Virus record (IMG/VR): IMGVR_UViG_3300035670_001152
Location: 1-25,512 of that record
Source: a virus
DNA: 25,512 bases
Reading direction: 5' to 3' (one strand)
Both the position numbers and the translations under genes were made by a program. Below the pieces are notes generated by a model. That model was not told where the DNA came from, ran no database searches, and worked only from the letters and a program-made list of their open reading frames with translations. Shown here one piece after another: positions 3,658 through 24,812 of the stretch (positions are counted from its first letter, which is position 1; the number at the start of each line of letters is the position of its first letter).

Positions 3658-3675
3658 TTCAGCTTCCTTTCTCGC

Positions 3676-3692
3676 GCTAACAAGCCGTTATC
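3676..3692 (-). promoter_or_regulatory. 17-bp dyad element, copy 2 of 12
   Basis: The coding strand reads GATAACGGCTTGTTAGC, two nt after the TGA stop of the tail terminator gene. The follower is the variant GCGCGAGAAAGGAAG, whose AAGGAAG serves the TTG start at 3657. Confidence 0.75.
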
Positions 3693-4807: not shown

Positions 4808-4823
4808 CGATCAAACTCCACGC

Positions 4824-4840
4824 GCTAACAACGTGTTATC
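4824..4840 (-). promoter_or_regulatory. 17-bp dyad element, copy 3 of 12
   Basis: The coding strand reads GATAACACGTTGTTAGC. The preceding T makes TGATAA, so the element supplies the upstream stop (TGA at 4839-4841). The GCGCGTGGAG follower contains the ribosome binding site for the head-closure gene. Confidence 0.78.
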
Positions 4841-7649: not shown

Positions 7650-7676
7650 TGTATTCCTTCTGCTCAAATTCCACGC

Positions 7677-7693
7677 GCTAACAGGCCATTATC
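7677..7693 (-). promoter_or_regulatory. 17-bp dyad element, copy 4 of 12
   Basis: The coding strand reads GATAATGGCCTGTTAGC with follower GCGCGTGGA. Unlike most copies it lies about 50 bp after the upstream stop (7742), downstream of a terminator-like hairpin, and 27 nt before the fibre ATG. Confidence 0.72.
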
Positions 7694-8140: not shown

Positions 8141-8989
8141 CTATGGCGCGGTTGCGTCGCTGGTCATCTTGACGCCCCAGGTCGGGCGCTCACCCAGCCC
8201 GTAGGCATAGACCATGGTCGCGTTCAGCTCCCACGCCCGCAGGGACGCATCCCGCTCCGGCTCCAGCCGGTACGCCCGGCGCACGTCGAAGGCGATGGCC
8301 TGCGGCGCGAACACGGCCGAGACCGCATCCGTGTCGGTGTTGATCGCGATGTTGGCCGAGGTGTAGACCGGGACGCCCAGATAGTTGGCCATCCAGTAGT
8401 CCCGCAGGGCCTGGCTGGTCATCGCATCCTTGTTGGCGTAGGTCGCGGCCGGCACGCCCGTCTCGAGAAAGACATCGTGCCAGTGGTACGGGTGGAGGAC
8501 AGCGCGCAGCGCGCCGCTGGGAGCGTAGGCCGCCCGCAGCGTGCTGATCGCGTCCGCCATGATCGTGGTTGAGAACGGGCTGTTGGCCGTGCCCGTGTCG
8601 GTCGAGAAGCTGCTGAACACGCCCACCAGGTCCGTGTCGACCTTCTTGGCAGCAGCCTCGCCCAACTCCTGGGCCGCCTGCGCCCGCGCGTTGTCCGGGT
8701 CGGACTCAATGTTGGCGTCGGTGAGAATGAACTGCGCAATGACCTCGCCCGGCGTCAGCGTGCCCACGCTGGATTTGCTGAACGTGGTGGGGTTGCTGTA
8801 GTCCACCGCATCAGCCACCGTCTCGTAGGAGACCTCAGGCCGGGTCGAGAAGGCGCGTGTCATGCGCCCTTGTGCGCTGTAGCCGCTCACCAACGACGGC
8901 ATCAAGCCACCCTCACGCGCCACCAGAACAGCATCCTCGTAGATCGAAGCGATGAACGAGCTGATGCTGGTGTACTGAGTGATTGCCAT
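8141..8989 (-). CDS. Major capsid protein (HK97 fold)
   Basis: A 282-residue protein. The sequence SYETVADAVDYSNPTTFSKS, then LTPGEVIAQFILTDANIESD and AQAAQELGEAAAKKVDTDLV, is a capsid-type E-loop to spine-helix order, and LRAVLHPYHWHDVFLETG with YLGVPVYTSANI is typical of the P-domain. The C-terminal FDVRRAYRLEPERDASLRAW and WGVKMTSDATAP complete it. It lacks a long N-terminal delta domain, consistent with the separate scaffold gene immediately upstream (6-bp gap). GGAG precedes the ATG. Confidence 0.88.
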   Translation of the reverse strand: MAITQYTSISSFIASIYEDAVLVAREGGLMPSLVSGYSAQGRMTRAFSTRPEVSYETVADAVDYSNPTTFSKSSVGTLTPGEVIAQFILTDANIESDPDNARAQAAQELGEAAAKKVDTDLVGVFSSFSTDTGTANSPFSTTIMADAISTLRAAYAPSGALRAVLHPYHWHDVFLETGVPAATYANKDAMTSQALRDYWMANYLGVPVYTSANIAINTDTDAVSAVFAPQAIAFDVRRAYRLEPERDASLRAWELNATMVYAYGLGERPTWGVKMTSDATAP

Positions 8990-8995
8990 CGTCTG

Positions 8996-9610
8996 TTACT
9001 CCGTAGTAGTTGACCAGAAGACCCCGCCACCCTGTCCGCCGAACACGTTGGCGCCGCCGCCGCCCATCCCATAGATGCGCTTCAGGCGCTCCTCCGTGCT
9101 CGGCCCCGGCGCGCCGCCGGCCGGGTTGGTGGGCGAGATCGTTCCGGCTTTCGCCGCCAGATACGGCTTGGCTGCCAGCAGGGCTTTCAGCTCCCGCTCT
9201 AGGCCGCCGATCTGGCCCTTGTCGTCGATCTCCAGGGCTGTCTGATCCAGCAGCCTGATGGCATCCTCTGGATCGTTGAAGCCCGCTTTCGCCGCCGCCG
9301 AGATCACCTGCGTGCGCAGAAGTTGCTGCTGGCGCTGCTGTTCAGCTGCCGCCCGTGCCTGGCGTTCAGCCTCCAGATCAGCCTTGAGCTTCTCCAGCTC
9401 GGTCATCTCGGACCGCTTGCGCTGCTCTTCGGCCTCCTCCGCTGCCCGCAGCTTCGTTCGCCACGAAGCCGCTTCCTTGCGCAGCGTCTTGACCTCTTTC
9501 AGCAGCGCCTCGATATCCGGCGTGCTCTGCTCTGCCCCTGGCTCCTGGCCCTGGGTCGTCGTTTCTTCCGTTGGGGTTGTGGGCGCCTGGCCCGTCGTTT
9601 GAGGTTCCAT
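8996..9610 (-). CDS. Capsid scaffolding protein
   Basis: A 204-residue protein with a disordered, Thr/Gln/Glu-rich N-terminus, a long charged coiled coil (about residues 33-100: IEALLKEVKTLRKEAASWRT, ELEKLKADLEAERQARAAAE), the FNDPEDAIRLLD segment and a Gly-rich tail. This is the layout of GP20/DUF4355-type scaffold proteins that template procapsid assembly and leave or are degraded. It is directly followed by the capsid gene and is first behind the promoter-like palindrome at 9634-9673. GGAG lies 11 nt before the ATG. Confidence 0.87.
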   Translation of the reverse strand: MEPQTTGQAPTTPTEETTTQGQEPGAEQSTPDIEALLKEVKTLRKEAASWRTKLRAAEEAEEQRKRSEMTELEKLKADLEAERQARAAAEQQRQQQLLRTQVISAAAKAGFNDPEDAIRLLDQTALEIDDKGQIGGLERELKALLAAKPYLAAKAGTISPTNPAGGAPGPSTEERLKRIYGMGGGGANVFGGQGGGVFWSTTTE

Positions 9611-9633
9611 CTATGCATCATCTCCTGGATTCT

Positions 9634-9673
9634 GCACGTTTTCAGCTTACCACACTGAAAACGTGCATGTCAA
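9634..9673 (-). promoter_or_regulatory. Palindromic promoter-like element P1 (before scaffold/capsid genes)
   Basis: TTGACA on the coding strand (9668-9673) is followed, after 17 nt, by GTAAGC (or TAAGCT after 18), a weak -10 in a TGTG context. Spacer and -10 lie in a perfect 12-bp inverted repeat (9634-9645 and 9655-9666) with a 9-base centre. A transcript would start about 25 nt before the scaffold gene. The same core recurs at 19218-19262. The stem has no T run on either strand, so a terminator is less likely than a promoter with overlapping operator. Confidence 0.6.
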
Positions 9674-9692
9674 TAGCTGCCGATTTCCACGC

Positions 9693-9709
9693 GCTAACAT
9701 GCCCTTATC
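9693..9709 (-). promoter_or_regulatory. 17-bp dyad element, copy 5 of 12
   Basis: The coding strand reads GATAAGGGCATGTTAGC. It overlaps the TGA stop of the MuF gene (TGATAA) and is followed by GCGCGTGGA, then by the -35 of P1 about 12 nt further on. Confidence 0.76.
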
Positions 9710-10766
9710 ACCTGTAGAACTTGCGCGCCTCATCCTCGCCGAGTAGTTCCTTCAAGCTCGGCATCACACGCATCAGCCCATAGACCGGATCGTCATGCTG
9801 CGCGCTGAGCTGATCCCAGCCCACCTTGCCAGCCTGCCACGCGTCGAACATGGCGCCGCCCATGTAGCCCTGCTGCTGGGCTGCGCTCAGGCTCTCGAAC
9901 CAATCCCGACCGCTGCCCACCTGCGGCCGCGTGTCCGGCAAGCCCTTGAAGCCCAGCGCCTCCCAGCTCTTCGTCACCGGCACCATGGCGCAGCGCCCAT
10001 TATGGTGATCGTTCAGCACCTCGTCCGGCTTGTGCAGTGTCCCGTGCATCGCGATGCAACTCATGCACACCCGGTCGTCCAGTTCCGCGTGCCAGATCCA
10101 GCCCTCCACGATGTCCGAGTTCGCCACGTAGGCCGCGCGGCTGCCTTCACGATAGGCCCACAGTTGCGCCGTCCTGGCCGTGCGCAGCGCCCACGCCAGC
10201 CCCTGGCCCAGCTCACGGCTGATCGCGCTGGCGATCTTGCGCGGGTTCCAGCCCAGGGCAATGCCGAGCAGCAGCCGCCGCTCCACCTGGCTGGCCACCG
10301 CCTCCCCGAGCTGCTTGACCAGCGAGTCTCGCAACGGCGACCCCGGCGCCAGGAAGCCCATCATGCGCAGCACGGCCTCGGTTGGCAGGCGGTTCCACTC
10401 CGCCCGCAGCGCCGCCGCTATCGGCTCCGGGATGCCCGCCAGCGCCATCTGCTGCGCATGTTGCAGCCCCAGCGCCACCTGCTGGCTGATCTGCGCCTGG
10501 AGGTCCGTGTCCACGAACGCCCCGAACCGCCCGATCTGCTCTACGATCTGCACCCGCAAGCTGCGCCAGCGCGCCAGCCTGGCCACCTTCCAGGCCTTAG
10601 GCTCGTCCATCAGCGCCAGCTCAGCCGTCAGCGCCTCGATCATCACCTGAAGCTCCTGAACGATCTGGCCGTAGGCCTGGACGTAGCGCACAGCCTGCTG
10701 CCGCTCCATCGCCAGCAGCGCCCGCCGGAATCGCTCAGCCGCCTCGATGGTCGGGTGCTCAGGCAT
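9708..10766 (-). CDS. Minor head / head morphogenesis protein (Mu gpF-like)
   Basis: A 352-residue protein. The N-terminal half is helical (TIEAAERFRRALLAMERQQA onwards). The conserved core about residues 175-265 contains RTARTAQLWAYREGSRAAYV, WHAELDDRVCMSCIAMHGTL and HHNGRCAMVPV, the Cys/His cluster of the phage Mu gpF family. These proteins sit inside the head near the portal and assist head assembly or DNA ejection. The start is placed at the ATG 10766, with AAGGAG upstream and an 8-nt overlap with the previous gene; the frame is open 44 codons further but that part is out-of-frame shadow of the previous gene. Confidence 0.86.
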   Translation of the reverse strand: MPEHPTIEAAERFRRALLAMERQQAVRYVQAYGQIVQELQVMIEALTAELALMDEPKAWKVARLARWRSLRVQIVEQIGRFGAFVDTDLQAQISQQVALGLQHAQQMALAGIPEPIAAALRAEWNRLPTEAVLRMMGFLAPGSPLRDSLVKQLGEAVASQVERRLLLGIALGWNPRKIASAISRELGQGLAWALRTARTAQLWAYREGSRAAYVANSDIVEGWIWHAELDDRVCMSCIAMHGTLHKPDEVLNDHHNGRCAMVPVTKSWEALGFKGLPDTRPQVGSGRDWFESLSAAQQQGYMGGAMFDAWQAGKVGWDQLSAQHDDPVYGLMRVMPSLKELLGEDEARKFYR

Positions 10767-11007
10767 CTCCGAGCAGCTCCTTGCTGACCCAGCCCAGCGC
10801 AGCCACCGGCACCCAGCCATTTTCTTCCAGCCCGATCCGAACAATCCGCACGCCGGGCTGCAAGACCGCAACATGCGGAAGATTGATCGATGGTCCACTG
10901 CGCAGCTTCGCAGCGCTATTGGTCGACGCCTCGTCCATCGTCGGGCGCCAGCCCGTTTGATCCTCGAACGCCGCCAGGATCGTCATCTCGCCAATCTGCA
11001 GTGTCAT
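10759..11007 (-). CDS. Unknown 82-residue protein in the head operon
   Basis: The protein starts MTLQIGEMTILAAFEDQTGW and ends WVPVAALGWVSKELLGDA. It looks like a small alpha/beta protein without membrane segments or metal ligands. Its ATG overlaps the methyltransferase stop by 4 nt (ATGA), with GGAGG upstream, and its end overlaps the MuF start. This strict coupling supports expression. No family recognised. Confidence 0.65.
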   Translation of the reverse strand: MTLQIGEMTILAAFEDQTGWRPTMDEASTNSAAKLRSGPSINLPHVAVLQPGVRIVRIGLEENGWVPVAALGWVSKELLGDA

Positions 11008-11456
11008 GTTGCCTCCAGTTTGCGAAGAACCGCATGGATGTTAGCCAGGTCAATGCCAAGCTGGACGATCTCCCACTTCTTGGCCGTGTAGAAGCCATAC
11101 TTCTGGCCCCACTGGGTGCGCGGGTCCAGGTAGTGAAAGGTCTCCGGGTGATAGCATCGCACGTGCGTAGGATCGATCACCGCGTTCGGGCTGTTCCACA
11201 TCGGCGTGCGCACAGCCGCCACGCCGCCCGGCCGCAGGATGCGCCACACCTCGTCGAAGAAGCCGATGAAGCCCATGTGCAAATGCTCCAGCAGGTCTTG
11301 CGCCACCACCTGGTCGAACGAGCCATCAGGCCATGGCCATGGCGTCAATTCCAAGTCATGCGCCACATCCACCCACGGCGAATGCGACGTCAGGTCATGG
11401 TTCACCGCGCCGTCCAGCGGCTCATTGCCGCAGCCCAGGTTCAGGATGGTGGCCAT
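11004..11456 (-). CDS. SAM-dependent methyltransferase (Methyltransf_11-like, short)
   Basis: A 150-residue class I methyltransferase. Motif I is ILNLGCGNEP (residues 4-13), followed by VNHDLT, SFDQVVAQDLLEHL (motif IV region with EH) and FDEVWRILRPGGVAAVRTP. The core is short, with a compact C-terminal substrate region (RTQWGQKYGFYTAKKWEIVQ). It overlaps the preceding glycosyltransferase by 16 nt and the next gene by 4 nt. By association it may methylate a glycan or protein made or modified by the neighbouring glycosyltransferases; the substrate is not visible in the sequence. Confidence 0.82.
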   Translation of the reverse strand: MATILNLGCGNEPLDGAVNHDLTSHSPWVDVAHDLELTPWPWPDGSFDQVVAQDLLEHLHMGFIGFFDEVWRILRPGGVAAVRTPMWNSPNAVIDPTHVRCYHPETFHYLDPRTQWGQKYGFYTAKKWEIVQLGIDLANIHAVLRKLEAT

Positions 11457-12130
11457 GAGTAGTCTATCCCGCTGCCGTCCAGCACCAGCGGCTCCGCCCG
11501 TTCCCAGCTACGATTGCCCCAGGCGCTCTCACGCTCGCCGATGTGCTCTGACAAGTCCAGCGCCGCCAGCTTGTAGCCCCTGGCCTGCAAGTCCCGGCAG
11601 ACCGTCAAGTCCTCGCCGCCAGTTTGGTCAGCTAGGGGCCCGATCAGCGTGCGCCAGTGCCGCGCAGGAAACGACCACGAGCTGCCCGGCAGAGTCGCCC
11701 GGATCAGCGTCCGCTCGCCGCCGATCACCAGGTCCTCCAGCACCGTGTTCCACGGGTACACCGGCTCCCAGTTCAGCGAGGCCAGCCCCACCCAGGACGG
11801 CGCCGCCTGCCAGAACGCCAGAAGACGCGCCGCCCATCTTGGCTTGTACAGGTAGTCGTCAGCCGAGAACACGATCACGCTGGCCCCCGTCGCCGCGGCC
11901 ATGTCCAGCGCCGTGTTCATGCTGTAGCCTACCGTCACCCGATTCTCGAAGACGTAGCTGTTCGGCTGGTGCGCCACCCACGCCCGTTGCTGATCGTCAC
12001 TGCTGCCGCCGTCGACCAGCACACGCTTGAACGGATACCCAGGATGGGCGTCCATGCTGGCCAGCGTCTGCCGCAGGAAATGAAACCGATTGAAGGTCAG
12101 GACCGCAACGCAAATCGTCGGCTGTTCCAT
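11441..12130 (-). CDS. GT2-like glycosyltransferase A (GT-A fold)
   Basis: A 229-residue protein with the GT-A order: TICVAVLTFNRFHFLRQTLA at the N-terminus, LVDGGSSDD (39-46), VFSADDYLYKP with D91/D92 as the metal/nucleotide-binding acidic pair, and a late GGEDLTVCRDLQARGY (ED, residues 173-174) as in bases of GT2 enzymes. The start is set to the ATG at 12130, with GGGAGG about 9 nt upstream; the longer open frame is shadow of the preceding gene, which it overlaps by 34 nt. It probably transfers a sugar from a nucleotide donor; the acceptor is unknown. Confidence 0.82.
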   Translation of the reverse strand: MEQPTICVAVLTFNRFHFLRQTLASMDAHPGYPFKRVLVDGGSSDDQQRAWVAHQPNSYVFENRVTVGYSMNTALDMAAATGASVIVFSADDYLYKPRWAARLLAFWQAAPSWVGLASLNWEPVYPWNTVLEDLVIGGERTLIRATLPGSSWSFPARHWRTLIGPLADQTGGEDLTVCRDLQARGYKLAALDLSEHIGERESAWGNRSWERAEPLVLDGSGIDYSWPPS

Positions 12131-12777
12131 ACGCCAAACGCCTCCCGTGCGACTCTCCGGTTGAACGACGACCGCCCGCTCTGGTACGTGATGGGCGCTT
12201 CCACCACCGTCAGACCCAGCCACCGGCACGCCAGCAGCACCTCGATCTGCCAGGCGTGCATGGTCGCCGTGTACGTCAGCCTGGCCAGCTTGCGCAGCGC
12301 CCCCGCCGCGAAAACCCGATAGCCGGAAGTCCAGTCGCTAATCCCGCTTAACGCGTGGAAGTAGCGCACGTTGCACGCCAACGCCGCAGCCCGGCTCAGA
12401 CTCTGCCGCACCGGGCTGCCCAGGTAACATGACCCCGGCCGGAACCTTGATCCCACCAGCACGTCCGCATCGCCCAGGCGACCTACCAAATGCGTTGCCG
12501 CCTGCGGGTCATGGCTGCGGCCCGCGTCAATTTGCACCACGGCCGTGGCTCCAGCGTCCAGCGACCAGCGCCACCCCTCCACCAGGCTCGGCCCGATCCC
12601 GCGCCGGACCTGGTGCATAATGACGTGCGCGCCTGCGTATCGCGCCAGATAGGTTGTTTCATCCTGGCTGGCATCGTCGATCACGCACACGCGCAGCCCC
12701 TGCTCGCGCAAGCCGACCACCAGCCAGCCGATGCTCTCCGCCTCATTCAGAGTCGTCACCACAGCACAGGTGTTCAT
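12097..12777 (-). CDS. GT2-like glycosyltransferase B (DPM1-like)
   Basis: A 226-residue protein of the dolichol-phosphate-mannose synthase-like branch: VVTTLNEAESIGWLV, VCVIDDASQDET (D34/D35), VVQIDAGRSHDP (D84 in the DxD-equivalent), VLVGSRFRPG, SGISDWTSGYRVF and QIEVLLACRWLG. It lacks the C-terminal membrane helices of many relatives, so it should be soluble or peripheral. The start ATG at 12777 overlaps the preceding stop by 4 nt. It follows a virion-type beta protein gene, which is a candidate acceptor by position only. Confidence 0.85.
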   Translation of the reverse strand: MNTCAVVTTLNEAESIGWLVVGLREQGLRVCVIDDASQDETTYLARYAGAHVIMHQVRRGIGPSLVEGWRWSLDAGATAVVQIDAGRSHDPQAATHLVGRLGDADVLVGSRFRPGSCYLGSPVRQSLSRAAALACNVRYFHALSGISDWTSGYRVFAAGALRKLARLTYTATMHAWQIEVLLACRWLGLTVVEAPITYQSGRSSFNRRVAREAFGVWNSRRFALRS

Positions 12778-13352
12778 TCCTTGTCCGTGTGCTCGTACCA
12801 CTCGATATCCCAGTTGATGAAGTTGGCCGCGTTGCTGACAGCGTTCACGATCTGCAATGCATAGGTCGTGTTCTGCTTGGCCACCCACTCGTTCTCAGCC
12901 CGCTGGCTGCCGCCCAAGTCGCGGCCGCTGCCCCAGTGCCATGTCTGCAACAGTGCCGTGCCGATGGTGCCGGGGGAGGCCGTGCCAGCAGTCGCCCCCG
13001 TGTAGACGCTACAGGTCGGCAGGGTTGCGCTGTTGCGGTTGCGGTTCCACGCCGTAACCGCGTCTCCAATCGTGCCCCCGTGCGCCGTGCCCGCCGTGAA
13101 GCCCTCGTACAGCTTCACATCGGTTTCCAGCTCGCTGACCACTGCCGGCACCATGTGGGCCCACTTCGTGGTATCCGGCGTCCTGAACGTCAGGATCAAC
13201 GTGCCTGCGGCCGCCAAGTCTACCGCGCCGCTGGCGCTGAACAGGCTGCCGCCGTGCAGCTCGTGATGAGCATAGTCGATAGTGTTCAACGCGTGCGTCG
13301 ATCCGTCGAACGCATCCTTCCACACTGATTGCACCGATTGAGAAGTAGCCAT
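12774..13352 (-). CDS. Virion-associated beta protein (putative decoration or fibre protein)
   Basis: A 192-residue protein. The text GSTHALNTIDYAHHELHGGS, LILTFRTPDTTKWAHMVPAV, TAWNRNRNSATLPTCSVY, AENEWVAKQNTTYALQIV and WDIEWYEH resembles a widespread family of small phage structural beta-sandwich proteins with the NRNRNS loop and a C-terminal WYE motif. Function in other phages is mostly assigned as virion component. It stands just before two glycosyltransferases and is rich in Ser/Thr, which makes it a possible glycosylation target. The ATG at 13352 begins a few nt after the previous stop. Confidence 0.6.
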   Translation of the reverse strand: MATSQSVQSVWKDAFDGSTHALNTIDYAHHELHGGSLFSASGAVDLAAAGTLILTFRTPDTTKWAHMVPAVVSELETDVKLYEGFTAGTAHGGTIGDAVTAWNRNRNSATLPTCSVYTGATAGTASPGTIGTALLQTWHWGSGRDLGGSQRAENEWVAKQNTTYALQIVNAVSNAANFINWDIEWYEHTDKE

Positions 13353-13356
13353 TGTG

Positions 13357-13779
13357 TCACCTCGCAGGAATTACAGAATTCAACGGCAGGGCAATTCCCC
13401 GCCGCTGTTGCACATCCCTCCACCACTGCTCGAACACGCTCGGCAGAAGGATGCGCCGCTCGATGTAGGACAAGCCGGCCATCGCCGCCTGCACGCTCTC
13501 AGGCGTAGGCGTGCTCATACGCCACAAGTCCTCCAGCGCCCGCACCGCCCAGTCATAGCCCTGGACGTGCGGCAGCACGCTCCGCTCCAGGTCAGCCCAC
13601 GTCACGATGCGCGGCTGGTCGAACACGCCCCGCTCAGGCGCAGGCCGCGCGGCTGGCGCCGGCTGCCGCCACGCGTCTTCACTGTGCGTTGAACACAGCC
13701 GCTCGCCCGTCGGCCCGTTGAAGAAGGCCGGCGCGCCGCACACCGCGCACCTGCTTTGTCGATACTTCCATCCCGGCAT
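13357..13779 (-). CDS. Zinc-ribbon protein in the head operon
   Basis: A 140-residue protein. The N-terminus has CAVCGAPAFFNGPTGERLCS followed by TH, that is C-x2-C-x13-C-x2-H, a probable zinc-binding ribbon. The rest is helical (WADLERSVLPHVQGYDWAVR; GLSYIERRILLPSVFEQWWR). The ATG at 13779 is chosen because GGAGG precedes it; the longer frame would run into dyad element copy 6. Function unknown; small Cys-rich proteins in this position are seen in several phages. Confidence 0.65.
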   Translation of the reverse strand: MPGWKYRQSRCAVCGAPAFFNGPTGERLCSTHSEDAWRQPAPAARPAPERGVFDQPRIVTWADLERSVLPHVQGYDWAVRALEDLWRMSTPTPESVQAAMAGLSYIERRILLPSVFEQWWRDVQQRRGIALPLNSVIPAR

Positions 13780-13798
13780 AGAGCCTCCAAATCCGCGC

Positions 13799-13815
13799 GC
13801 TAACAAACACTTATC
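13799..13815 (-). promoter_or_regulatory. 17-bp dyad element, copy 6 of 12
   Basis: The coding strand reads GATAAGTGTTTGTTAGC, follower GCGCGCGGA. Its TAA (13811-13813) is the stop codon of the 27-residue membrane microgene. The zinc-ribbon gene starts 19 nt later. Confidence 0.74.
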
Positions 13816-13894
13816 GTCGGTTCCACCGTTCACCCACCGCCGCGCCCAGGATCACCAATCCCAGGCCCAGCAGCAGCCAGAGCCCGGCATCCAA
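13811..13894 (-). CDS. 27-residue membrane microprotein
   Basis: The TTG start directly follows the portal stop (TAG TTG). The peptide MDAGLWLLLGLGLVILGAAV plus GERWNRR is one hydrophobic helix with a basic tail. It fills the gap between the portal gene and the dyad element, and its stop is the element's TAA, as with larger genes elsewhere in the window. The ribosome binding site is weak (GGGG about 9 nt upstream), so expression would depend on coupling to the portal gene. Confidence 0.4.
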   Translation of the reverse strand: MDAGLWLLLGLGLVILGAAVGERWNRR

Positions 13895-15202
13895 CTACTG
13901 GCCCCGCTCAAAGGCCGCCAACAGCCGGTTGCCGATGTTGTCCGACATCGCCTCTTCATCCGCGATGCGCTCCTGCTCTTGCTCCCAGTTGCGCCCGCGC
14001 AGCGAGGCCGCCGTTTCCTTGCTCAGGATGCCCAGCCCCATCTCCGTCTGGATGCCGGCGATCTCCTCCTGATCGTTGAAGGGCAGCGGGTCCGGCCAGG
14101 TCACCACCGGCCTGGCCGCCCAGCCCATCAGCGCCAACGCCCGCTCGCTGATGTCGGCCAACCCAGTGCCGTACAGAGCCCGCTTTGTCGCCAGCTTGTC
14201 CAGCGCGTCCTTGTACAGCGTGCGCAAGCCGAAGTTGGTGATGTTGCCCATGTCCTTGGCGAAGGTGCTCATATCCACCGCGCGGTGCTCGCTGAAGAAC
14301 CAGCCCTGTAGGAACGTGAGGAACGCCATTGACGACCCAAGGTCACTTTGCATCTCCAGGTTCTTGATCTGCGCCTCCGAGTTCGGCACGCTCCAGAACC
14401 CGTCCACGTCCGTCGCTTGCAGGTCCGTCGACCGCATCCCCGTGCCGATCGTCTTAGGGTGCGCGTGGAACTTCAGGATGCGCATGGTGTTGCTGGCCAG
14501 GAAATTCAGCGCGTCGTTCAGCTCAGGCCGCACCAGGTCAGGGTCACCGTAGTACTCCTCCGGGTCGGGCAGGTTCTGCCATTCCACAATCGGCGCCCAG
14601 GGGAAGCCCCAGATCACCTCATTCATCACGGCCCAGTTCTTCCCCCGCTCCCTGACCAGGTCACGCACCAGCCACGACCCGCCCAGGTTGACGATATCCT
14701 GGCGCAGGCTCGTGTCGCCCTGCTCGAAGCTGATCGAGTAGGCCGTCACCTGGTCCATGTCATCCGGCCGCCAGTACACCGTCACCATGCGCGGGTTCAG
14801 CAGCACGAACCGCACGCCGCCCTCCACAGGCGCCAGCTTGACGAACACATGGCCCGTCAGCGCCCCTTCCAGGGCCAGGTTGTGGAGGAAAATCGGCGCA
14901 TCGTTGGCCGCCCACAGCGCCTCTAGCGCCTCGTCCTCTGGGTCGTCACCCTGGCTGCCGATCTCGAACGTTGGCGGCTCGCCGAACAGCAGCGCCACAG
15001 CCTGCTCGATGGTCTTACGGCACACGTTCAGGATCACGTTGTCGTCCGGCTGGCCCGGCCTGACCTTCAGCGGCCGCTTCTGGTTGCCCTCATAGTACGC
15101 CCAGGCCGCATCAATCTGTTTGCGCCGCTGCGTCATCTCGCCTTCCGCCATCCGGTCCAGCTCGCCCGGCTTCTCCATCGGGTATTCCATCAGTCCAGGC
15201 AT
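13895..15202 (-). CDS. Portal protein (SPP1 gp6-like)
   Basis: A 435-residue protein. Recognisable stretches are AAWAYYEGNQKRPLKVRPGQ, NVCRKTIEQAVALLFGEPPT, NLALEGALTGHVFVKL, a wing region with LNPRMVTVYWRPDDM, the long helix DALNFLASNTMRILKFHAHP and the late KETAASLRGRNWEQEQERIA. This is the phage_prot_Gp6/SPP1-type portal order. The dodecameric portal is the DNA channel and terminase docking site. AAAGGAG lies six nt before the ATG. It follows terminase and the CHAT-like gene rather than terminase alone. Confidence 0.9.
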   Translation of the reverse strand: MPGLMEYPMEKPGELDRMAEGEMTQRRKQIDAAWAYYEGNQKRPLKVRPGQPDDNVILNVCRKTIEQAVALLFGEPPTFEIGSQGDDPEDEALEALWAANDAPIFLHNLALEGALTGHVFVKLAPVEGGVRFVLLNPRMVTVYWRPDDMDQVTAYSISFEQGDTSLRQDIVNLGGSWLVRDLVRERGKNWAVMNEVIWGFPWAPIVEWQNLPDPEEYYGDPDLVRPELNDALNFLASNTMRILKFHAHPKTIGTGMRSTDLQATDVDGFWSVPNSEAQIKNLEMQSDLGSSMAFLTFLQGWFFSEHRAVDMSTFAKDMGNITNFGLRTLYKDALDKLATKRALYGTGLADISERALALMGWAARPVVTWPDPLPFNDQEEIAGIQTEMGLGILSKETAASLRGRNWEQEQERIADEEAMSDNIGNRLLAAFERGQ

Positions 15203-15215
15203 CTCGAACTCCTTT

Positions 15216-15232
15216 GCTAATCCGTCGTTAGC
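15216..15232 (-). promoter_or_regulatory. 17-bp dyad element, copy 7 of 12
   Basis: The coding strand reads GCTAACGACGGATTAGC with 5-bp perfect arms. It begins one nt after the TAA stop of the CHAT-like gene; the follower is AAAGGAG, the portal ribosome binding site, instead of GCGCGTGGA. Confidence 0.72.
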
Positions 15233-15233
15233 A

Positions 15234-15995
15234 TTACAAGTGCAGCTCTACAAACTCGCCAACCGTCGCCGGCGCCCGTTGCAGCGCCCGCTCAAACGCC
15301 TCGTTGGCGTCCATGCCCAGCCCCACGGCCAGCCAGAACGCCCCAGCGAAGATGCTCGCTGCCTTGTTTTCTACATCCTCGCGCATCGAGACCACTGCCG
15401 GGACCACGCCCAGCAGGTCCGCTACCTGGTCTGCGGAGCACCCTGCCAGCACGGCAATCTCTACACCAGCGAGGTGCTCGCTCAGCCACAGTCCGGTAGC
15501 CACGCCATCGTTGAAGGCCAGACCACCCGGACCGCTGTGCACGGCCAGGTGCAGGAGCTTGACCGGCGTGCCTGCAGCCCGGTGCCTGTCCAGCGTCCGC
15601 ACCAGGCTGGCCTTGCTGACCGGCAACAGCCGGCTGATCCTGATGTCGGTCTGCGTCTGGACCCGACGCAACTGCGCCAGGTCCTCCTGCAACATCCCGT
15701 CAGCACCAACACCGACCAGCAGAACCCGCTTTTCCTTCAGCGGCTCGTTCATCGGCGGCGACGTGCGCTCCAGCTGGCGAATGCGCTCGTTCAGCCGGTC
15801 GATCTCGTTCTGCTTTTCGACCAACATCCGCTGTAAGGACGCGATGTCCCGCTCTAGACTGGCCACCCGTTGCACGAGCTCGTCCTCTCGGCTCAGCGGC
15901 GCAGCTGGCAGCCGCCTTTTTTCTCGCTTAATCGCCAGCCCCATCGCCACTACGCCAACGAGAAGGGCTGCAACGGTCAGTGGATCAACATTCAT
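15234..15995 (-). CDS. Membrane-anchored CHAT-like (caspase-like) cysteine protease
   Basis: A 253-residue protein in three parts. Residues 6-22 form one membrane helix (TVAALLVGVVAMGLAI) followed by basic KREKRR. Residues about 36-79 are a coiled coil (LVQRVASLERDIASLQRML, EKQNEIDRLNERIRQLE). Residues about 89-240 resemble a CHAT/caspase-like domain: VKLLHLAVHSGPGGLAFNDG carries the likely catalytic H153 in the place of the usual GHG, EIAVLAGCSADQVADLLG carries C186, and PAVVSMREDVENKAASIFAG, then AFWLAVGLGMDANEAFERAL, match the family's final strand and helices. The ATG at 15995 overlaps the previous gene by 11 nt. Between terminase and portal this is unexpected. Roles in host takeover, exclusion or virion processing are inference. 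Confidence 0.7.
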   Translation of the reverse strand: MNVDPLTVAALLVGVVAMGLAIKREKRRLPAAPLSREDELVQRVASLERDIASLQRMLVEKQNEIDRLNERIRQLERTSPPMNEPLKEKRVLLVGVGADGMLQEDLAQLRRVQTQTDIRISRLLPVSKASLVRTLDRHRAAGTPVKLLHLAVHSGPGGLAFNDGVATGLWLSEHLAGVEIAVLAGCSADQVADLLGVVPAVVSMREDVENKAASIFAGAFWLAVGLGMDANEAFERALQRAPATVGEFVELHL

Positions 15996-16377
15996 CGTCG
16001 CGCCCTGCTGTGATCTCGCCAAGCATGGCCCACATGATCGCGGTGTCCAGCAGCTTGGAGGTCATGCTCGTCGTCGCAGCAGCCAGTACGCTCCATACTA
16101 GCAGCGCCGCAAGTGCCACCAGCCGGCCGCTCAGTCGCAAACGGAAGCGGTTGTGGCACGTGGCCAACAGTGCCAGACCTGCGGCCAGGAACAGCCAGCC
16201 GAATGTTGCTTGTGGCAGAATGCCCAACGGATACGTGATCGCAGGTCCGGGGAAAAATGGCAACCGTGGGAACGCCACCGCCAGCGTCAGCCAGGCTGCC
16301 ATCCGCCGCACCTCGCCGCCCCGGAACGGTCGCACGATCAACCATATCTTGCGCGTTATCGCTTGAAGCGCATCCAT
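15985..16377 (-). CDS. Small multi-helix membrane protein
   Basis: A 130-residue protein with hydrophobic segments at about 26-52 (MAAWLTLAVAFPRLPFFPGP), 60-75 (GWLFLAAGLALLATC) and 86-101 (LVALAALLVWSVLAAA), and a basic N-terminus (RKIWLIVRPFRGGEVRR). It has no enzymatic motif. It is coupled to the CHAT-like gene by an 11-nt overlap, so the two may work together at the membrane. The ATG at 16377 has no close ribosome binding site; it stands directly after dyad element copy 8. A holin is conceivable but not supported beyond topology. Confidence 0.65.
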   Translation of the reverse strand: MDALQAITRKIWLIVRPFRGGEVRRMAAWLTLAVAFPRLPFFPGPAITYPLGILPQATFGWLFLAAGLALLATCHNRFRLRLSGRLVALAALLVWSVLAAATTSMTSKLLDTAIMWAMLGEITAGRDDEC

Positions 16378-16379
16378 GG

Positions 16380-16396
16380 GCTAATCAACTGTTACC
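16380..16396 (-). promoter_or_regulatory. 17-bp dyad element, copy 8 of 12
   Basis: The coding strand reads GGTAACAGTTGATTAGC, the most divergent copy (GG instead of GA/GC in the first arm). It lies between the large terminase stop (16408) and the membrane protein ATG, only two nt before that start. Confidence 0.6.
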
Positions 16397-16407
16397 TTCC
16401 GAAAATC

Positions 16408-17787
16408 CTACAAGTAAAAAGGGTTCTCGGACGTTTCGACCGGTTCATATCCAGCCAACCGCATGAGACCATAGACCATAGCATCCACCAGATCGTCATG
16501 AGCGCCATTCGGAAATGTCAGCATCTCATGCACGAGGGCATCCACATACGGACCGTTCACGATCCGTACCATCCCGCTCTCGAAGAAGCGGGTGACGCTG
16601 TTCGCCCTGGCGACCTTATCACCAGCCGGCTCGATCTCAATCATAGGCAGCCCGCTGAACCTCAGTTGCTGCCGCAGACTCTTGCCGCTGGCCCGGGCCT
16701 CCACAAGCTGCTCCGCAGTTGGCCATCTGGCCACCTGCGCCTTGACGGCCCGCACAAGTTCTGGAAATTCGAGCCGATCATGCACAAGCGGCTGCACGTA
16801 GATCATGCCGTCCTCGGCCTGGCCGACCAACACCCCGGCCGAGTAGTCGCTGCTCTCCTTGCTCTCAAACGCCGTGTCCCATACGACACCAGAACGTGCC
16901 AGGACAGGCACAGTCTCTGCGTATGATAGCCAGGCAGCCTTGAAGACGTTTCCTTCTTCCTGGCGCGGCTCCTGATCATACAGAGCCGCCCAGTCGCGCT
17001 CGCCAATGCTGGCCTTCGTCTGGAGCAGCGCCGCGCGGTCGTAGCGCTGCGGATCGAGCGCCTCGCCAAGATCTCGGCCCAATGGATCCGCGGCCTTGGC
17101 CAGCCCAGCCAGCTTGATCACATGCCACTGGTCAGCGGTTGGGTTGTCCGCTGCCAGCTTCAGCAGCCGGCCGGCCAGATCATCCTCATGCCAGCGGGTC
17201 ATCACCAGTACGATTCTGCCGCCCGGCTCTAACCTGGTGCGCAGGGTGGACGTGTACCAGTTCCACGTGCTTTGCCGGAAGGTGGCGCTGTCGGCCTCTG
17301 CCCGGTTCTTCACCGGGTCATCGATGACGATCACCTGACCGCCCTTGCCGGTGATAGGTCCGCCCACGCCAGCAGCCTGCAAACCGCCACGCTGACCGGC
17401 GATCTTCCACCGCTGCACCGCCCGACTGTCGGCCGCTAGTGCCACATCCGGCGAGGTCTTCACCTCAACCAGGCGCCTGCCGCCGAACAACTCGGCGAAT
17501 TCCTCGCTGGCCACCACGCCCCGGCACTCGCCAGATTTGTCCCACGCCAAATCGGCAGCGTAGGACGTGTACAGCATCGGCCATTCCGGGTGCCGGCCCA
17601 GGCACCAGGCCAGCCAGCGTATAAGCAGCTCGGTTTTTCCAGTGCGAGGCGGCATGAACACCATCAGCCGCCGCACCTCGCCGCGCTCCACAGACTCCAG
17701 TTGCTCGGCGAGGAACGTGTGAACGAATCCCGGCCTGTACCAGGGAGCCGTGTACATCGTGAATTCAATCAACCGGCGCCGGGCCAT
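16408..17787 (-). CDS. terL: Terminase large subunit
   Basis: A 459-residue protein from the chosen start. The ATPase part has Walker A VFMPPRTGKTE (residues 43-53), Walker B VIVIDD (152-157) and coupling motif VLVMTRWHEDDLAGRL. The nuclease part has VVWDTAFESKESSDYSAG (D304, D314) and GAHDDLVDAMVYG (D431, D432, D435), the C-terminal signature of the TIGR01630-type terminases. It packages DNA through the portal. The frame is open to an ATG at 17874, but that start would overlap the small subunit by 110 nt; ATG 17787 leaves a 23-nt overlap and keeps the usual family beginning (MARRRLIEFTMYTAPWY). Confidence 0.93.
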   Translation of the reverse strand: MARRRLIEFTMYTAPWYRPGFVHTFLAEQLESVERGEVRRLMVFMPPRTGKTELLIRWLAWCLGRHPEWPMLYTSYAADLAWDKSGECRGVVASEEFAELFGGRRLVEVKTSPDVALAADSRAVQRWKIAGQRGGLQAAGVGGPITGKGGQVIVIDDPVKNRAEADSATFRQSTWNWYTSTLRTRLEPGGRIVLVMTRWHEDDLAGRLLKLAADNPTADQWHVIKLAGLAKAADPLGRDLGEALDPQRYDRAALLQTKASIGERDWAALYDQEPRQEEGNVFKAAWLSYAETVPVLARSGVVWDTAFESKESSDYSAGVLVGQAEDGMIYVQPLVHDRLEFPELVRAVKAQVARWPTAEQLVEARASGKSLRQQLRFSGLPMIEIEPAGDKVARANSVTRFFESGMVRIVNGPYVDALVHEMLTFPNGAHDDLVDAMVYGLMRLAGYEPVETSENPFYL

Positions 17788-18373
17788 CTCCGTGCGCAGC
17801 GCCTGCTGGCCTCTGGGCGATGCGAGCCAGCGCAGCGAGTTCCGCGTCTGTGAGGCTGCCGAGGTCATACACATCCACTCGTTGCTCGATGCTGGCGGGC
17901 GAGCTCGGCCTGCCCAACTTGCTGCCGGTCTCTGGCTCAGCCCACCGCATCAGTGTCTCAGCCGCCGCTATCCGATCGGCGCCCTTCTGGTCAGCGCCGT
18001 CCATCACCTGGGCCAGCGCCGCCGGCGCCTTCGCGCTGTACTCTGCAATCGCCCGCCGGCGCGTCCTGCGGTGCTGCTCCTCGATGGAGACCGTTTCGGC
18101 GTCTACCCAGTCCAGCGCCCGCGCCCGGCACGCATCGAACGCCGCGGCCACTTCTGGGATGTCCTTCCACTTGCTCCACCAAATCTGCTCGGCGCACGTG
18201 TCCGGCCGATCAAAGACCGTCTTCAGCGGCGCCGACGTGGCATAGGCAAACGCCAGCAGGATCACCGTCCGCCGCTTCTTCGCTTCCCACGGCCCCGGGA
18301 TCGCACTCAACAGCCGGCTGATCTCCGGCGTCATCCACTGCCAGCCTTCAGGTTCGTTCACTCGCACAGTCAT
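17765..18373 (-). CDS. Probable terminase small subunit
   Basis: A 202-residue protein starting MTVRVNEPEGWQWMTPEISR. The N-terminal half has a helix-turn-helix-like order (RRTVILLAFAYATSAPLKTV followed by WWSKWKDIPEVAAAFDACRA), the middle is helical, and the acidic C-terminus ends ELAALARIAQRP. Small terminases recognise the packaging site with such an N-terminal domain and recruit the ATPase. Position directly before the large subunit supports the call. An ATG at 18373 is used; the TTG before it is unlikely. No good ribosome binding site is visible, only dyad element copy 9. Confidence 0.72.
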   Translation of the reverse strand: MTVRVNEPEGWQWMTPEISRLLSAIPGPWEAKKRRTVILLAFAYATSAPLKTVFDRPDTCAEQIWWSKWKDIPEVAAAFDACRARALDWVDAETVSIEEQHRRTRRRAIAEYSAKAPAALAQVMDGADQKGADRIAAAETLMRWAEPETGSKLGRPSSPASIEQRVDVYDLGSLTDAELAALARIAQRPAGAAHGDGPAPVD

Positions 18374-18384
18374 CAAGAACGCCC

Positions 18385-18401
18385 GCTAACTGCTTGTTAG
18401 C
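18385..18401 (-). promoter_or_regulatory. 17-bp dyad element, copy 9 of 12
   Basis: The coding strand reads GCTAACAAGCAGTTAGC; its 5-bp arms are perfect and a sixth bp is lost to a one-base offset in the centre only. It lies 11 nt before the small terminase ATG and abuts an 11-bp direct repeat. Confidence 0.72.
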
Positions 18402-18422
18402 ACATCACTTTCACATCACTTT
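18401..18422 (-). repeat. Two tandem copies of AAAGTGATGTG
   Basis: An exact 11-bp direct repeat in the 108-bp gap between the SleB-like gene and the small terminase gene. A related CTTAACTTTCACC follows on the plus strand. The rest of the gap has no credible gene. A protein-binding or packaging-related site is possible given its place before the terminase genes. Confidence 0.5.
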
Positions 18423-18481
18423 CGACTTAACTTTCACCAGCCTCCGGGTGTTGCGCGGTGGGGTGATCCTGGCTACACGAA

Positions 18482-18811
18482 CTAGCGCCAACTCTCAACC
18501 CACGTCCCATCACACACCCAGCGGCCAGTCCGCTCACGCAGCCAGGGCATCCGTTCCGCATCGCCCGGCCCGATGAAGTATAGCGCTCCGTCTACCAGAT
18601 CGGGCAGCGCGCCGCCCCACTGGGCCGCCAACACATCCAGCACAGCCGGCTCAGCCCAGCCGAACCAACCGCCTGTGATGCCGGCCGCCAGCCGGTTCAG
18701 CGCCACCTGCACCGCGGCCACCTTCGCCAGCCACGGGCAGCCCGGCGTTTCGCCCGCCACGATCCACGCCAACATGGCCAGTGTCAGGATCAGCAACAAG
18801 GATAACTCCAT
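18482..18811 (-). CDS. Membrane-anchored SleB-like cell wall hydrolase (putative endolysin)
   Basis: A 109-residue protein. Residues 3-19 are a signal anchor (LSLLLILTLAMLAWIVA), directly followed by GETPGCPWLAKVAAVQVALN and R40, resembling the start of cell-wall hydrolase SleB domains (GE followed by AVAxVxLNR), where the Glu (E21) is catalytic. LDVLAAQW and GALYFIGPGDAERMPW fit the later QW and LYF(Y/F) region. It is shorter than usual SleB domains. The ATG overlaps the preceding stop (TGATG), with GGAG five nt upstream. It probably degrades peptidoglycan during lysis; alternatively a small virion-linked transglycosylase. Confidence 0.55.
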   Translation of the reverse strand: MELSLLLILTLAMLAWIVAGETPGCPWLAKVAAVQVALNRLAAGITGGWFGWAEPAVLDVLAAQWGGALPDLVDGALYFIGPGDAERMPWLRERTGRWVCDGTWVESWR

Positions 18812-19152
18812 CAGTTCTCCGGCCAATCATCATCGGGCGTCCAACTGTCCGCCGGCTGGTAATTGCGCTGCCGCCGCATAATCCACGCCGTAAGCTGTAC
18901 CCTGGCCAGCGCAATCTCGGTCTGCTTGTACACCGTTCGGCTCTCGCCCGGCTGCGGCGGCTCCGGCTGCTGTCCTAGCCATCGCTCCGCCATCCCCAAG
19001 AACGCCACCGCCAGCCGCACAGACGCCGCGGCCAGCGCATCCCGGCCGCCCGGCGTCCGCATGGCCAGCACCAGCCCGACGGTGAAGATCACGAACACCA
19101 CCACAGCCACTACCAGCGCCACGTTTTCCATCAGCCATTCGGTCGCCGACAT
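18811..19152 (-). CDS. Single-pass membrane protein (holin candidate)
   Basis: A 113-residue protein, MSATEWLMENVALVVAVVVF onwards, with one strong membrane helix (about 9-32) and a long polar C-terminal part containing a second weaker helix (LAAASVRLAVAFLGMAERWL). It is coupled to the SleB-like gene and lies behind promoter-like element P2, so a holin or accessory lysis role is a reasonable inference. The ATG at 19152 is chosen for the GGAGG six nt upstream; the longer frame to 19206 would include the hairpin at 19168-19198. Confidence 0.55.
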   Translation of the reverse strand: MSATEWLMENVALVVAVVVFVIFTVGLVLAMRTPGGRDALAAASVRLAVAFLGMAERWLGQQPEPPQPGESRTVYKQTEIALARVQLTAWIMRRQRNYQPADSWTPDDDWPEN

Positions 19153-19167
19153 ACTGCCTCCGATCAT

Positions 19168-19198
19168 AAAGAAGAAGCCGCCTGCCTGAGCACGCGGC
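19168..19198 (-). terminator. Terminator- or attenuator-like hairpin downstream of P2
   Basis: On the coding strand GCCGC-G-TGC pairs with GCA-G-GCGGC around a TCAG loop, with one G-G mismatch, and is followed by TTCTTCTTT. It lies about 40-60 nt after the expected P2 start and before the 113-residue membrane gene, so it could attenuate that transcript. Confidence 0.4.
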
Positions 19199-19217
19199 CG
19201 TCTCACCTGGAAACACC

Positions 19218-19262
19218 GACATTGCCGTTTTCAGCTTATCACACTGAAAACGGCAATGTCAA
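19218..19262 (-). promoter_or_regulatory. Palindromic promoter-like element P2 (before the lysis-like genes)
   Basis: TTGACA (19257-19262 on the coding strand) is followed by the same TGTGATAAGCT core as P1, with TAAGCT 18 nt after the -35. The palindrome is larger than in P1: 17-bp perfect arms (19218-19234 and 19244-19260) around a 9-base centre. It occupies the gap between the 39-residue membrane gene and the 113-residue membrane gene. Confidence 0.6.
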
Positions 19263-19606: not shown

Positions 19607-19622
19607 CGCTCAGACTCCACGC

Positions 19623-19639
19623 GCTAAGAATGCGTTATC
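19623..19639 (-). promoter_or_regulatory. 17-bp dyad element, copy 10 of 12
   Basis: The coding strand reads GATAACGCATTCTTAGC with follower GCGCGTGGAG. Here the TAG inside the second arm is the likely stop of the 38-residue frame upstream, and the follower carries the ribosome binding site of the next gene. Confidence 0.74.
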
Positions 19640-19740: not shown

Positions 19741-20620
<880 letters not shown>

Positions 20621-20644: not shown

Positions 20645-20873
20645 CTTAGCCTTGCCACGCCTGCCTTGCCATGCCGCGCCATGGCCAACCTTGCCGGGCC
20701 GTGCCCAACCTGCCTAGCCCAGCCTAGCCAAGCCCGACCTAGCCAATCCAAGCCTGCCCTGCCATGCCTCGCCATGCCTCGCCGTGCCTTGCCATGCCTG
20801 CCTCGCCGCGCCAGGCCAGGCCTGGCCAGGCCCGGCCCTGCCCAGCCGCGCCTGCCGTGCCGTGCCTGCCGTG
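20645..20873. repeat. Degenerate 5-bp-periodic repeat tract (NNGCC), possible origin
   Basis: On the plus strand the tract reads in steps of five, for example TAGCC CAGCC TAGCC and TGCCT CGCCA TGCCT, for about 45 units with occasional phase slips. It fills the gap between the gene ending at 20875 and the replication gene starting at 20620. Open frames on both strands here are by-products of the repeat. Adjacent to a replication initiator, iteron-like origin function is possible but unproven. Confidence 0.8.
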
Positions 20874-21474: not shown

Positions 21475-21528
21475 CGTCTGATCTCCTTCTGAATGATTGA
21501 TCGAGCTCGAGTGCTCGAATTGTCAGGC

Positions 21529-21545
21529 GCTAACAATGTCTTATC
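21529..21545 (-). promoter_or_regulatory. 17-bp dyad element, copy 11 of 12
   Basis: The coding strand reads GATAAGACATTGTTAGC, overlapping the TGA stop of the 76-residue gene (TGATAA). The follower GCGCCTGAC is a weaker match, and an extra 14-bp palindrome-like GAGCACTCGAGCTC stretch lies between it and the next gene. Confidence 0.72.
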
Positions 21546-21774
21546 ACCGGGAGACGTGATTGACCACGATCTCCTCAGCTTCCTCGCGCATCTGCAAGGC
21601 CCAGGTCTCCAACTGCGCCGCACCCGCCAGCAGCACTGCCCGCCGCTGCTGCGGTACCATCTTGCCAACCGGCCGGCGATGCCGGATCACGAACCGCATC
21701 GAGTAGGCATCCTGCGCCGCCTCGATGGTGATGGGAGGCTGACTCTTGACCAGCCGATGGGATAGATCGATCAT
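21544..21774 (-). CDS. Unknown 76-residue protein
   Basis: The frame starts MIDLSHRLVKSQPPITIEAA and contains YSMRFVIRHRRPVGKMVPQQ and the helix LLAGAAQLETWALQMREEAE. The ATG overlaps the stop of the ParB-like gene by 4 nt, and the stop falls in dyad element copy 11. Basic middle, acidic end; no recognised family. Confidence 0.62.
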   Translation of the reverse strand: MIDLSHRLVKSQPPITIEAAQDAYSMRFVIRHRRPVGKMVPQQRRAVLLAGAAQLETWALQMREEAEEIVVNHVSR

Positions 21775-23132
21775 AGCTCACCTCTGCTCTGTGTTTGCCG
21801 AATCATGTCCAGCATCCAGTGCTGACCGGCGTCGTCCAACTCCAGCCACGGCGGGTTTTTGCTGCCGTTGCTCATCTGCACCAAAATGCGGCCATCCTCC
21901 GTGATCGTGCCGCGCGTGCGCCGCCAGTCGATCACTGTCTCCACCTGCTCGGCGATGTCCACCGGAACGAACGGCGCCACGCGCGTCCGCGCCCGCTCCG
22001 CGTCCGCCGCCATCGCAGCAGCCTGGGACCGGGTTAGGCGCTCGCGCCGTTCGTTGTCGGCGCGCTGGCGTGGGACGGCCATGCGCATGGCAAAATCGAA
22101 GTCCCGCCGCCCAAACGTGCGATTATGTTGGACGGCGATGCCCTGCATGTACTCATACAGCCAGTCGTGGTCGACGCCGTCCAGCGCGACGCTCTCTAGC
22201 GCCACCAGTTCCTCAACCAACTCTTCGACGATCCACGGCTCTATCGGTTTCGGCTTGCAGGCCCTGGCCGGCGGCTCGACCTCCACCCGCTCGGCCATGT
22301 CCACCGGCTCGATCTCGGCCAGCACCGCGCTGATCGCCGCCCCCAGCATCCCTGCGCTGTACTTCCCGTCGATCCAGTTCATCCAGTCGTCCCAGTAGGA
22401 TCCCTTCCGGCCAATGCTCTCGCTGTTCAACCCGCGCAGCGCCTGGGCCGGGTCCTCCCACACATCCGCCCACCCCCGCACCTGCGCCGTCAATTCGGCC
22501 AGGCTCAGCCATTTGCCTTCCTGGGCCGCCACGGCTGGCGCTGCGCTGCGTTGCGGGGTGGCCATCGTGTATTCTGTCCCGTTCCGCTGGACTCGCCGTG
22601 TTTCTATCTGGCAACCGTTGCCAGATAGCTCCGCGCGCAGGTTGGCCACCAGCGTGTGGCTCACTGCGCAGCGCCGGGCGATCTCCCGATCCGACCACCG
22701 GCCCCACTCCTCGTCTTGCAGGAGGGCCATCACCGCCCGCCGCTTGTCCTCGTTCGTGCGACGGAAGCCGTGCGTCGCATTGGCCCCAACCGACAGCAGC
22801 ACGGCGTCCCGCCGCGTGCCCTGGCGGACGTGCGCCAGGATTGCCCGGTCGCCGTCCTTGCGCCAGGCATGGAACCGGTGAAAGCCATCCCACAGCCAAT
22901 AGTCCGCCCCATCAAAAACAACCTCGATGGGGGGGAATTGTGCGCCGCTGGCCATGTCCGCGTAGTAGTCATCCACCACGGCCTGGCTGATGCCAGCTCG
23001 CGGTTGGGTGCCACCGTCTAGCCGAACTTTGACGGTGCTGATCCGTTCGGCAGCGGGACCGATGGCTAAGTCCAAATCGTCAATCGCCTGGTCGATTCGG
23101 GCCAGAATGTCAGGGGTTGGTTGGCGTGTCAT
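21771..23132 (-). CDS. ParB-like nuclease/DNA-binding domain protein
   Basis: A 453-residue protein. Residues about 30-105 are a ParB/sulfiredoxin-type domain with ADYWLWDGFHRFHAWRKDGD (DGFHR at 82-86, the nucleotide-binding loop in ParB-like domains). Residues about 125-168 contain a helix-turn-helix (DKRRAVMALLQ, then WSDREIARRCAVSHTLVANL). The remainder is a long, partly acidic region (VEELVEELVALESVALDG) and a C-terminal beta part. It could regulate transcription, act in DNA processing or partition; the data do not decide. The ATG at 23132 overlaps the preceding stop by 4 nt, which makes the longer frame unlikely. Confidence 0.78.
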   Translation of the reverse strand: MTRQPTPDILARIDQAIDDLDLAIGPAAERISTVKVRLDGGTQPRAGISQAVVDDYYADMASGAQFPPIEVVFDGADYWLWDGFHRFHAWRKDGDRAILAHVRQGTRRDAVLLSVGANATHGFRRTNEDKRRAVMALLQDEEWGRWSDREIARRCAVSHTLVANLRAELSGNGCQIETRRVQRNGTEYTMATPQRSAAPAVAAQEGKWLSLAELTAQVRGWADVWEDPAQALRGLNSESIGRKGSYWDDWMNWIDGKYSAGMLGAAISAVLAEIEPVDMAERVEVEPPARACKPKPIEPWIVEELVEELVALESVALDGVDHDWLYEYMQGIAVQHNRTFGRRDFDFAMRMAVPRQRADNERRERLTRSQAAAMAADAERARTRVAPFVPVDIAEQVETVIDWRRTRGTITEDGRILVQMSNGSKNPPWLELDDAGQHWMLDMIRQTQSRGEL

Positions 23133-24795: not shown

Positions 24796-24812
24796 GCTAA
24801 GTCCTTGTTAGC
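24796..24812 (-). promoter_or_regulatory. 17-bp dyad element, copy 12 of 12
   Basis: The coding strand reads GCTAACAAGGACTTAGC with perfect 5-bp arms. Its TAA (24808-24810) is the stop of the upstream membrane gene, and AGGTGA directly after it serves the next gene. Confidence 0.74.

Follow-up and report, generated by a model that had tools for sequence, protein, structure and literature searches.

A palindrome shared by two putative late promoters of an uncultured phage, a candidate operator for one dimeric regulator

Introduction

Inverted repeats that lie at or over promoters are found in several well-described systems. CIRCE, the operator of HrcA, is a 9-N9-9 inverted repeat that adjoins or overlaps its promoter. 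The repeat recognised by Lpa in phage P1 has its centre near -22, in promoters that lack a proper -35, and at the lambda promoter PR' the regulator's DNA overlaps the promoter itself. Eleven late promoters of phage P1 share this 9-bp inverted repeat, which is bound by the activator Lpa, lambda uses PR' together with Q, and late genes are positively controlled in all well-studied phages (PMC10695390). In Cluster K mycobacteriophages, short dispersed repeats (SAS/ESAS) occur where genes start, and upstream of some there are imperfect inverted repeats of 17 bp; ESAS is tied to translation starts beside the 13-bp SAS, with variable spacers and many copies, and its function is unsettled (PMC3203893).

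Here we analyse a 25,512-base IMG/VR virus record (hereafter, the window), whose minus strand bears nearly all of the genes. Read from right to left, these are replication-type and ParB-like genes, small membrane-protein genes and the terminase subunits, and then the portal, head morphogenesis, scaffold, capsid and tail genes. Two palindromes in this array, P1 and P2, are the subject of this report (Table 1).

Results

Anatomy of the palindromes

In agreement with a preliminary description of this DNA, which had noted two promoter-like palindromes with a common 27-bp core, both elements were found on the minus strand, read 5'-3' along it, with the core present exactly twice in the window; it never appeared in 100 dinucleotide shuffles, even when three mismatches were allowed. 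P1 (arms TGCACGTTTTCAG and CTGAAAACGTGCA) and P2 (arms GACATTGCCGTTTTCAG and CTGAAAACGGCAATGTC) are the two longest mismatch-free palindromes with a short loop in the window. The outer arm of P1, previously given as GCA/TGC, is indeed complementary and one pair longer (TGCA/TGCA). It is also correct that the arms differ in sequence and yet stay complementary: between P1 and P2, pairs 10-12 are changed on both sides (A-T/C-G, C-G/G-C and G-C/T-A), although one paired A/T insertion could explain them all and there is no need to assume three independent compensations. Part of the -35 is mirrored in the right arm of P2 (ATGTC), and the outer 6-7 pairs of this palindrome, including the partial mirror, are not kept in the relative L148 (see below); these extra pairs may have arisen by template switching.

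The positions ascribed to the elements, P1 before the scaffold/capsid genes and P2 before the lysis-like/terminase block, are likewise supported. The small membrane protein encoded directly after P2 gave no match in PHROG and had no relative among the viral contigs scanned; it resembles the product of the corresponding L148 gene by eye only, a tblastn comparison of the two giving no match. As for the further copies that the preliminary description had proposed to look for, there is no third core elsewhere in the contig, and homologues do occur in the contigs L003 and L147/L148. An exact palindrome scan yielded no further instances in viral contigs, and the 25 inverted repeats that it returned from genome contigs all lack TTGACAT and the centre sequence and were taken as unrelated. 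Motif matches in L141 (within an ORF) and L143 were set aside as chance, and neither the P1 nor the P2 region was matched in annotated phages.

Table 1 Positions of the elements and genes discussed (window numbering unless L148 or L003 is named)
Feature	Position	Strand	Remarks
P1 dyad	9633-9667		13-bp perfect arms, 9-base centre; core 9637-9663; probable operator, centre near -13
P1 -35, TTGACA	9668-9673	-	identical in L003 and L148
P1 -10, TAAGCT	9644-9649	-	preceded by TGG (extended -10); spacer 18
P1 transcription start, predicted	9637	-	inferred from the -10 position
P2 dyad	19218-19260		17-bp perfect arms, 9-base centre; core 19226-19252
P2 -35, TTGACA	19257-19262	-	
P2 -10, TAAGCT	19233-19238	-	preceded by TGA; spacer 18
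P2 leader terminator-like hairpin with T-rich tract	19168-19199	-	attenuator-like; -20.4 kcal/mol, z -3.2
L148 counterpart of the P2 leader hairpin	L148 3700-3732		stronger; -20.7 kcal/mol, z -3.35
L148 P2' with flanking hairpins	L148 3590-3735		
L003 additional palindrome	L003 2003-2034		
Major capsid gene	8141-8989	-	next after scaffold; PHROG match
Scaffold gene	8996-9610	-	first gene past P1; PHROG match
Head morphogenesis gene	9708-10898	-	in the block P2 would read; PHROG match
Portal gene	13895-15202	-	in the block P2 would read; PHROG match
ORF between terminase and portal	15234-16022	-	
Large terminase gene	16408-17874	-	in the block P2 would read; PHROG match
Small membrane protein gene (holin-like?)	18811-19152	-	first gene past P2; ATG start at 19152
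Low-complexity tracts (two)	20040-20131, 20662-20860		
ParB-like protein gene	21771-23216		
Junction repeat copies	989-1011, 3670-3692, 4818-4840, 7671-7693, 9687-9709, 13793-13815, 19617-19639, 21523-21545	-	
Junction repeat copy	24796-24818	+	
Junction repeat variant	near 18382-18400		

Conservation in related contigs

L003, which is 85% identical to the window at the DNA level over about 4 kb, has P1 at the same gene junction (TTGACATTCACGTTTTCAGTATGGTATGCTGAAAGCG), where it contains TGGTATGCT and a -10 that reads TATGCT. L147 and L148, found through the second repeat family described below, are two nearly identical contigs with about 71% DNA identity to the window, and bear both elements at the same two junctions, P1' before the scaffold gene and P2' before the small membrane gene. 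Over a 57-bp stretch at P1, identity to L148 reaches 89%, where the mean is 71% (sd 8%), and the stretch ranks in the top 1.4% of all windows in that comparison; against L003, conservation of the P1 region is no higher than that of the flanking coding DNA. L003 additionally has a 13-bp perfect palindrome (GAAACCCGGTTTT-6-AAAACCGGGTTTC) between the junction repeat and P1, missing from the window and L148.

In L005 a different gene precedes the scaffold gene, and the P1 element is absent. Upstream of its terminase gene, L037 (TerL 61%) has a plain promoter-like site, TTGACA-17-TACAAT, with no palindrome, which indicates that the dyad is no general feature of the wider group. The capsid gene of the window is itself mosaic: its protein is 90% identical to that of L005 and 58% to that of L148, whereas the scaffold and head proteins are merely 51% identical to those of L005 and the terminase is 79% identical to that of L148.

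Promoter-like elements

Read so as to fit all homologues, the -10 is TAAGCT, 18 bp from the -35 and preceded by TGn; as had been proposed, it falls in the palindrome centre. Since this hexamer has only 3/6 consensus bases, a 4-of-6 promoter scan misses both P1 and P2. The promoter-like character suggested for the elements finds backing in the relatives: P1' of L148 reads TTGACA-17-TATACT, agrees with the consensus at 11 of 12 bases and is the top promoter-like site of that locus, while P2' reads TTGCAT-17-TATACT with TGA before the -10. Counting against the model are the weak -10 in the window, the poor -35 of P2' and the lack in P1' of the TG of an extended -10. Hexamers of the sigma-70 type (TTGACA/TATAAT-like, 16-18 bp apart, TGn allowed) were found at P1, P2 and L148 P1'. 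The pattern TTGACA-N15-TGnTAnnnT occurs in the window at P1 and P2 only and in none of 100 shuffles, a count that conveys rarity and is no independent test, as the pattern was framed after the sites had been seen. Among P1, P2 and L003 the dyad centre varies, but never at the TG, T, A or T of TGnTAnnnT. Given the conserved elements in the relatives, the near-consensus hexamers and the conservation of the P1 region against L148, a promoter is the best reading: judging from the sequence, P1 and P2 are most likely sigma-70-type promoters, P2 for the lysis/packaging/portal block and P1 for scaffold and capsid.

Conservation of half-sites rather than of symmetry

The preliminary description had further held that the symmetry itself seemed to be selected. 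Orthologues can tell selected symmetry from selected half-sites, which a single genome cannot, and we accordingly compared five sites from three phages pair by pair (P1, P2, L003 P1, L148 P1' and L148 P2'). Seven of the nine core pairs (1-5, 8 and 9) are invariant, and Watson-Crick symmetry holds in 42 of 45 core cells; the inverted half-sites are thus conserved across sites and species, in the manner of a dyad operator. The half-site CACGTTTTCAG is invariant in P1, L003 and L148 P1', and the half-site sequence kept among orthologues is CGTTTTCAG. Where orthologues do differ, pairs mostly break without compensation, at pair 6 (T.G in L148 P1'), pair 7 (T.G in L003, C/C in L148 P2'), pair 11 (A/A in L148 P2') and pair 12 (T/C in L003 and L148 P1'), and pair 10, between P2 and L148 P2', is the only one compensated; a general pattern of compensatory change, by which orthologues of a structured RNA preserve pairing, is not seen. 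By this comparison, what the orthologues conserve is the half-site sequence and not symmetry as such, and the earlier view is not supported. Because this sequence is kept while pairs break, an operator for a DNA-binding dimer is favoured over a hairpin. In addition, the left half-site CACGTTTTCAG falls between the -35 and the -10, in a spacer whose sequence a mere promoter would leave free to vary.

The P2 leader

Between P2 and its first gene lies a terminator-like hairpin that has a counterpart in L148 (Table 1); the hairpin is followed by six T in L148 and is weaker, with an interrupted T tract, in the window. P1 has no such hairpin downstream. An intrinsic-terminator-like hairpin (CCCGGCGGG-7-CCCGCCGGG-CTGTTTT) also lies directly upstream of L148 P2', as expected at the beginning of a new transcription unit. 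This bracketing of P2', by a terminator-like hairpin upstream and the strong six-T hairpin in the leader, suggests attenuation or antitermination of the late block.

Other features of the window

The second dispersed repeat, GATAA-N5-TGTTAGCGCGTGG, is an imperfect palindrome with 9 copies in the window (0.01 expected), 5 in L148 and two in L003. It sits at gene junctions, often across the upstream stop codon, and one copy lies directly upstream of P1, a placement shared by L003 and L148. These repeats, which are comparable to the SAS of mycobacteriophages or the repeats of Cluster O (PMC3203893, PMC4351075), may be bound by a DNA-binding protein of the phage, for which the ParB-like protein is one candidate.

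The ORF between the terminase and portal genes encodes an N-terminal hydrophobic stretch and a coiled coil. It has a weak match to CHAT proteases, below the cut-off (E 0.002), and plausible motifs for His (LAVHSG) and Cys (LAGCSAD) can be made out by eye; comparisons with PADLOC and the PDB gave no supporting match, and the terminase-portal gap of L148 is too small for a counterpart. Of the low-complexity tracts, one consists of CTGTTG-type tandem repeats, which give the replication-type protein a run rich in glutamine; the other, made of TGCCTTGCCATGCC-type repeats, precedes the gene for this protein.

Discussion

A shared operator as the preferred reading

We consider it reasonably probable that P1 and P2 are late promoters of the sigma-70 type, used by the host RNA polymerase, whose shared dyad is the operator for one dimeric, repressor-like protein. 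P2 would start the lysis/terminase/portal block, and P1, as an internal promoter, scaffold and capsid. The dyad, CGTTTTCAG-N9-CTGAAAACG (with CACGTTTTCAG as the half-site in P1 and its orthologues), would overlap each promoter from about -26 to +1, with its centre near -13. A dimeric DNA-binding protein, encoded by the phage or by the host, would bind there, occlude the polymerase and hold both promoters off until late in infection, and the terminator-like hairpin in the P2 leader could curb leaky transcription. Repression is our first choice because a protein bound at a dyad near -13 would normally exclude polymerase. No repressor-type helix-turn-helix protein was found by Pfam among the early genes of this contig, which is a fragment, and the L148 sequence compared has no early gene in common with the window, so that the regulator cannot be found by intersection.

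Alternative explanations

The main rival retains the same promoters under positive control; the dyad would bind either an Lpa-like late activator or an antiterminator resembling Q, which would be loaded at the promoter and carry polymerase through the P2 leader hairpin. It owes this rank to that hairpin, present in both the window and L148, and to the positive late control of well-studied phages, which speaks for an activator or antiterminator over a repressor and has its precedents in the Lpa promoters of phage P1 and lambda PR' with Q (PMC10695390). The weak -10 of the window would suit an activated promoter as well. However, the near-consensus P1' of L148 should need no activator, P1 is without a leader hairpin, homologues of Q or Lpa did not come to notice, though neither was sought in particular, and a protein on the dyad would cover the -10 and the start, a position from which polymerase is usually blocked; on balance we find positive control unlikely.

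Two further explanations dispense with a protein at the dyad. The promoters might be real and the palindromes ligand-free, the product of a duplication later perfected through inter-arm template switching (quasipalindrome correction), with symmetry as a by-product. The useless -35 copy in the right arm of P2, the outer pairs that L148 P2' lacks and the arm differences readable as one paired insertion would all be accounted for, but not a half-site core kept on both sides at five sites in three phages, also beyond the promoter hexamers, nor a P1 region far more conserved against L148 than its surroundings, and we hold little expectation for this origin. Still more improbable, to the point where we give it scant credence, is a hairpin in RNA or single-stranded DNA, whether a processing site, an attenuator or a hairpin promoter of the N4 kind. 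Strong hairpins are predicted on both strands (-22.9 and -34.4 kcal/mol; minus-strand z -3.4 and -6.2), and read-through RNA could form them, that from P2 including the hairpin of P1. A promoter's own RNA could not, however, because its predicted start (9637 for P1, about 19226 for P2) lies at the end of the right arm and the left arm is missing. No run of T comes after the stems, whichever strand is read, and they were not listed by the scan that missed both promoters, so they are not intrinsic terminators; Rfam gave no match, the -35 and -10 retain their canonical positions at 17-18 bp, and the arm sequence stays fixed while pairs break. Of the two roles that the preliminary description had allowed, dimeric regulator or hairpin, the former is thus upheld by the kept half-sites, and the latter is not.

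Comparison with known systems

If the shared-operator reading holds, the locus offers a late-promoter/operator pair amenable to experiment, in a phage group that is known from metagenomes alone, and TTGACAT followed by CGTTTTCAG-N9-CTGAAAACG around the -10 provides a sequence handle for finding the regulator. More tentatively, it could represent a new late-gene circuit in an uncultured lineage, in which one dimeric regulator acts on a 9-N9-9 dyad that exactly two promoters carry in their -10 region, and co-times lysis/packaging with capsid production, with attenuation at the first promoter.

Among described systems, SAS/ESAS, at gene starts, resemble the second repeat family of the window, at gene junctions, in being short and dispersed, whereas the element described here has only two copies, each linked to promoter hexamers. 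The geometry of CIRCE is identical, 9-N9-9, but the sequence is wholly different, as are the genes served; identity with the HrcA operator, which requires TTAGCACTC-N9-GAGTGCTAA, was rejected on the arm found here, CGTTTTCAG. A late block that may open with a promoter, a short leader and a terminator-like hairpin is reminiscent of lambda PR'; unlike there, the leader hairpin is missing at P1, and neither a pause element nor a Q homologue was recognised. The Lpa promoters of phage P1 share with our elements the use of one inverted repeat, bound there by a regulator, in several late promoters of one phage (PMC10695390), and differ in that TTGACA is kept here, the 9-N9-9 dyad is centred near -13 and only two promoters are involved. 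By this analogy the element may work as the Lpa promoters do, although it cannot be ascribed to Lpa itself. Overlapping dyads common to several promoters form a familiar kind of switch, of which P1 and P2 are probably a further example.
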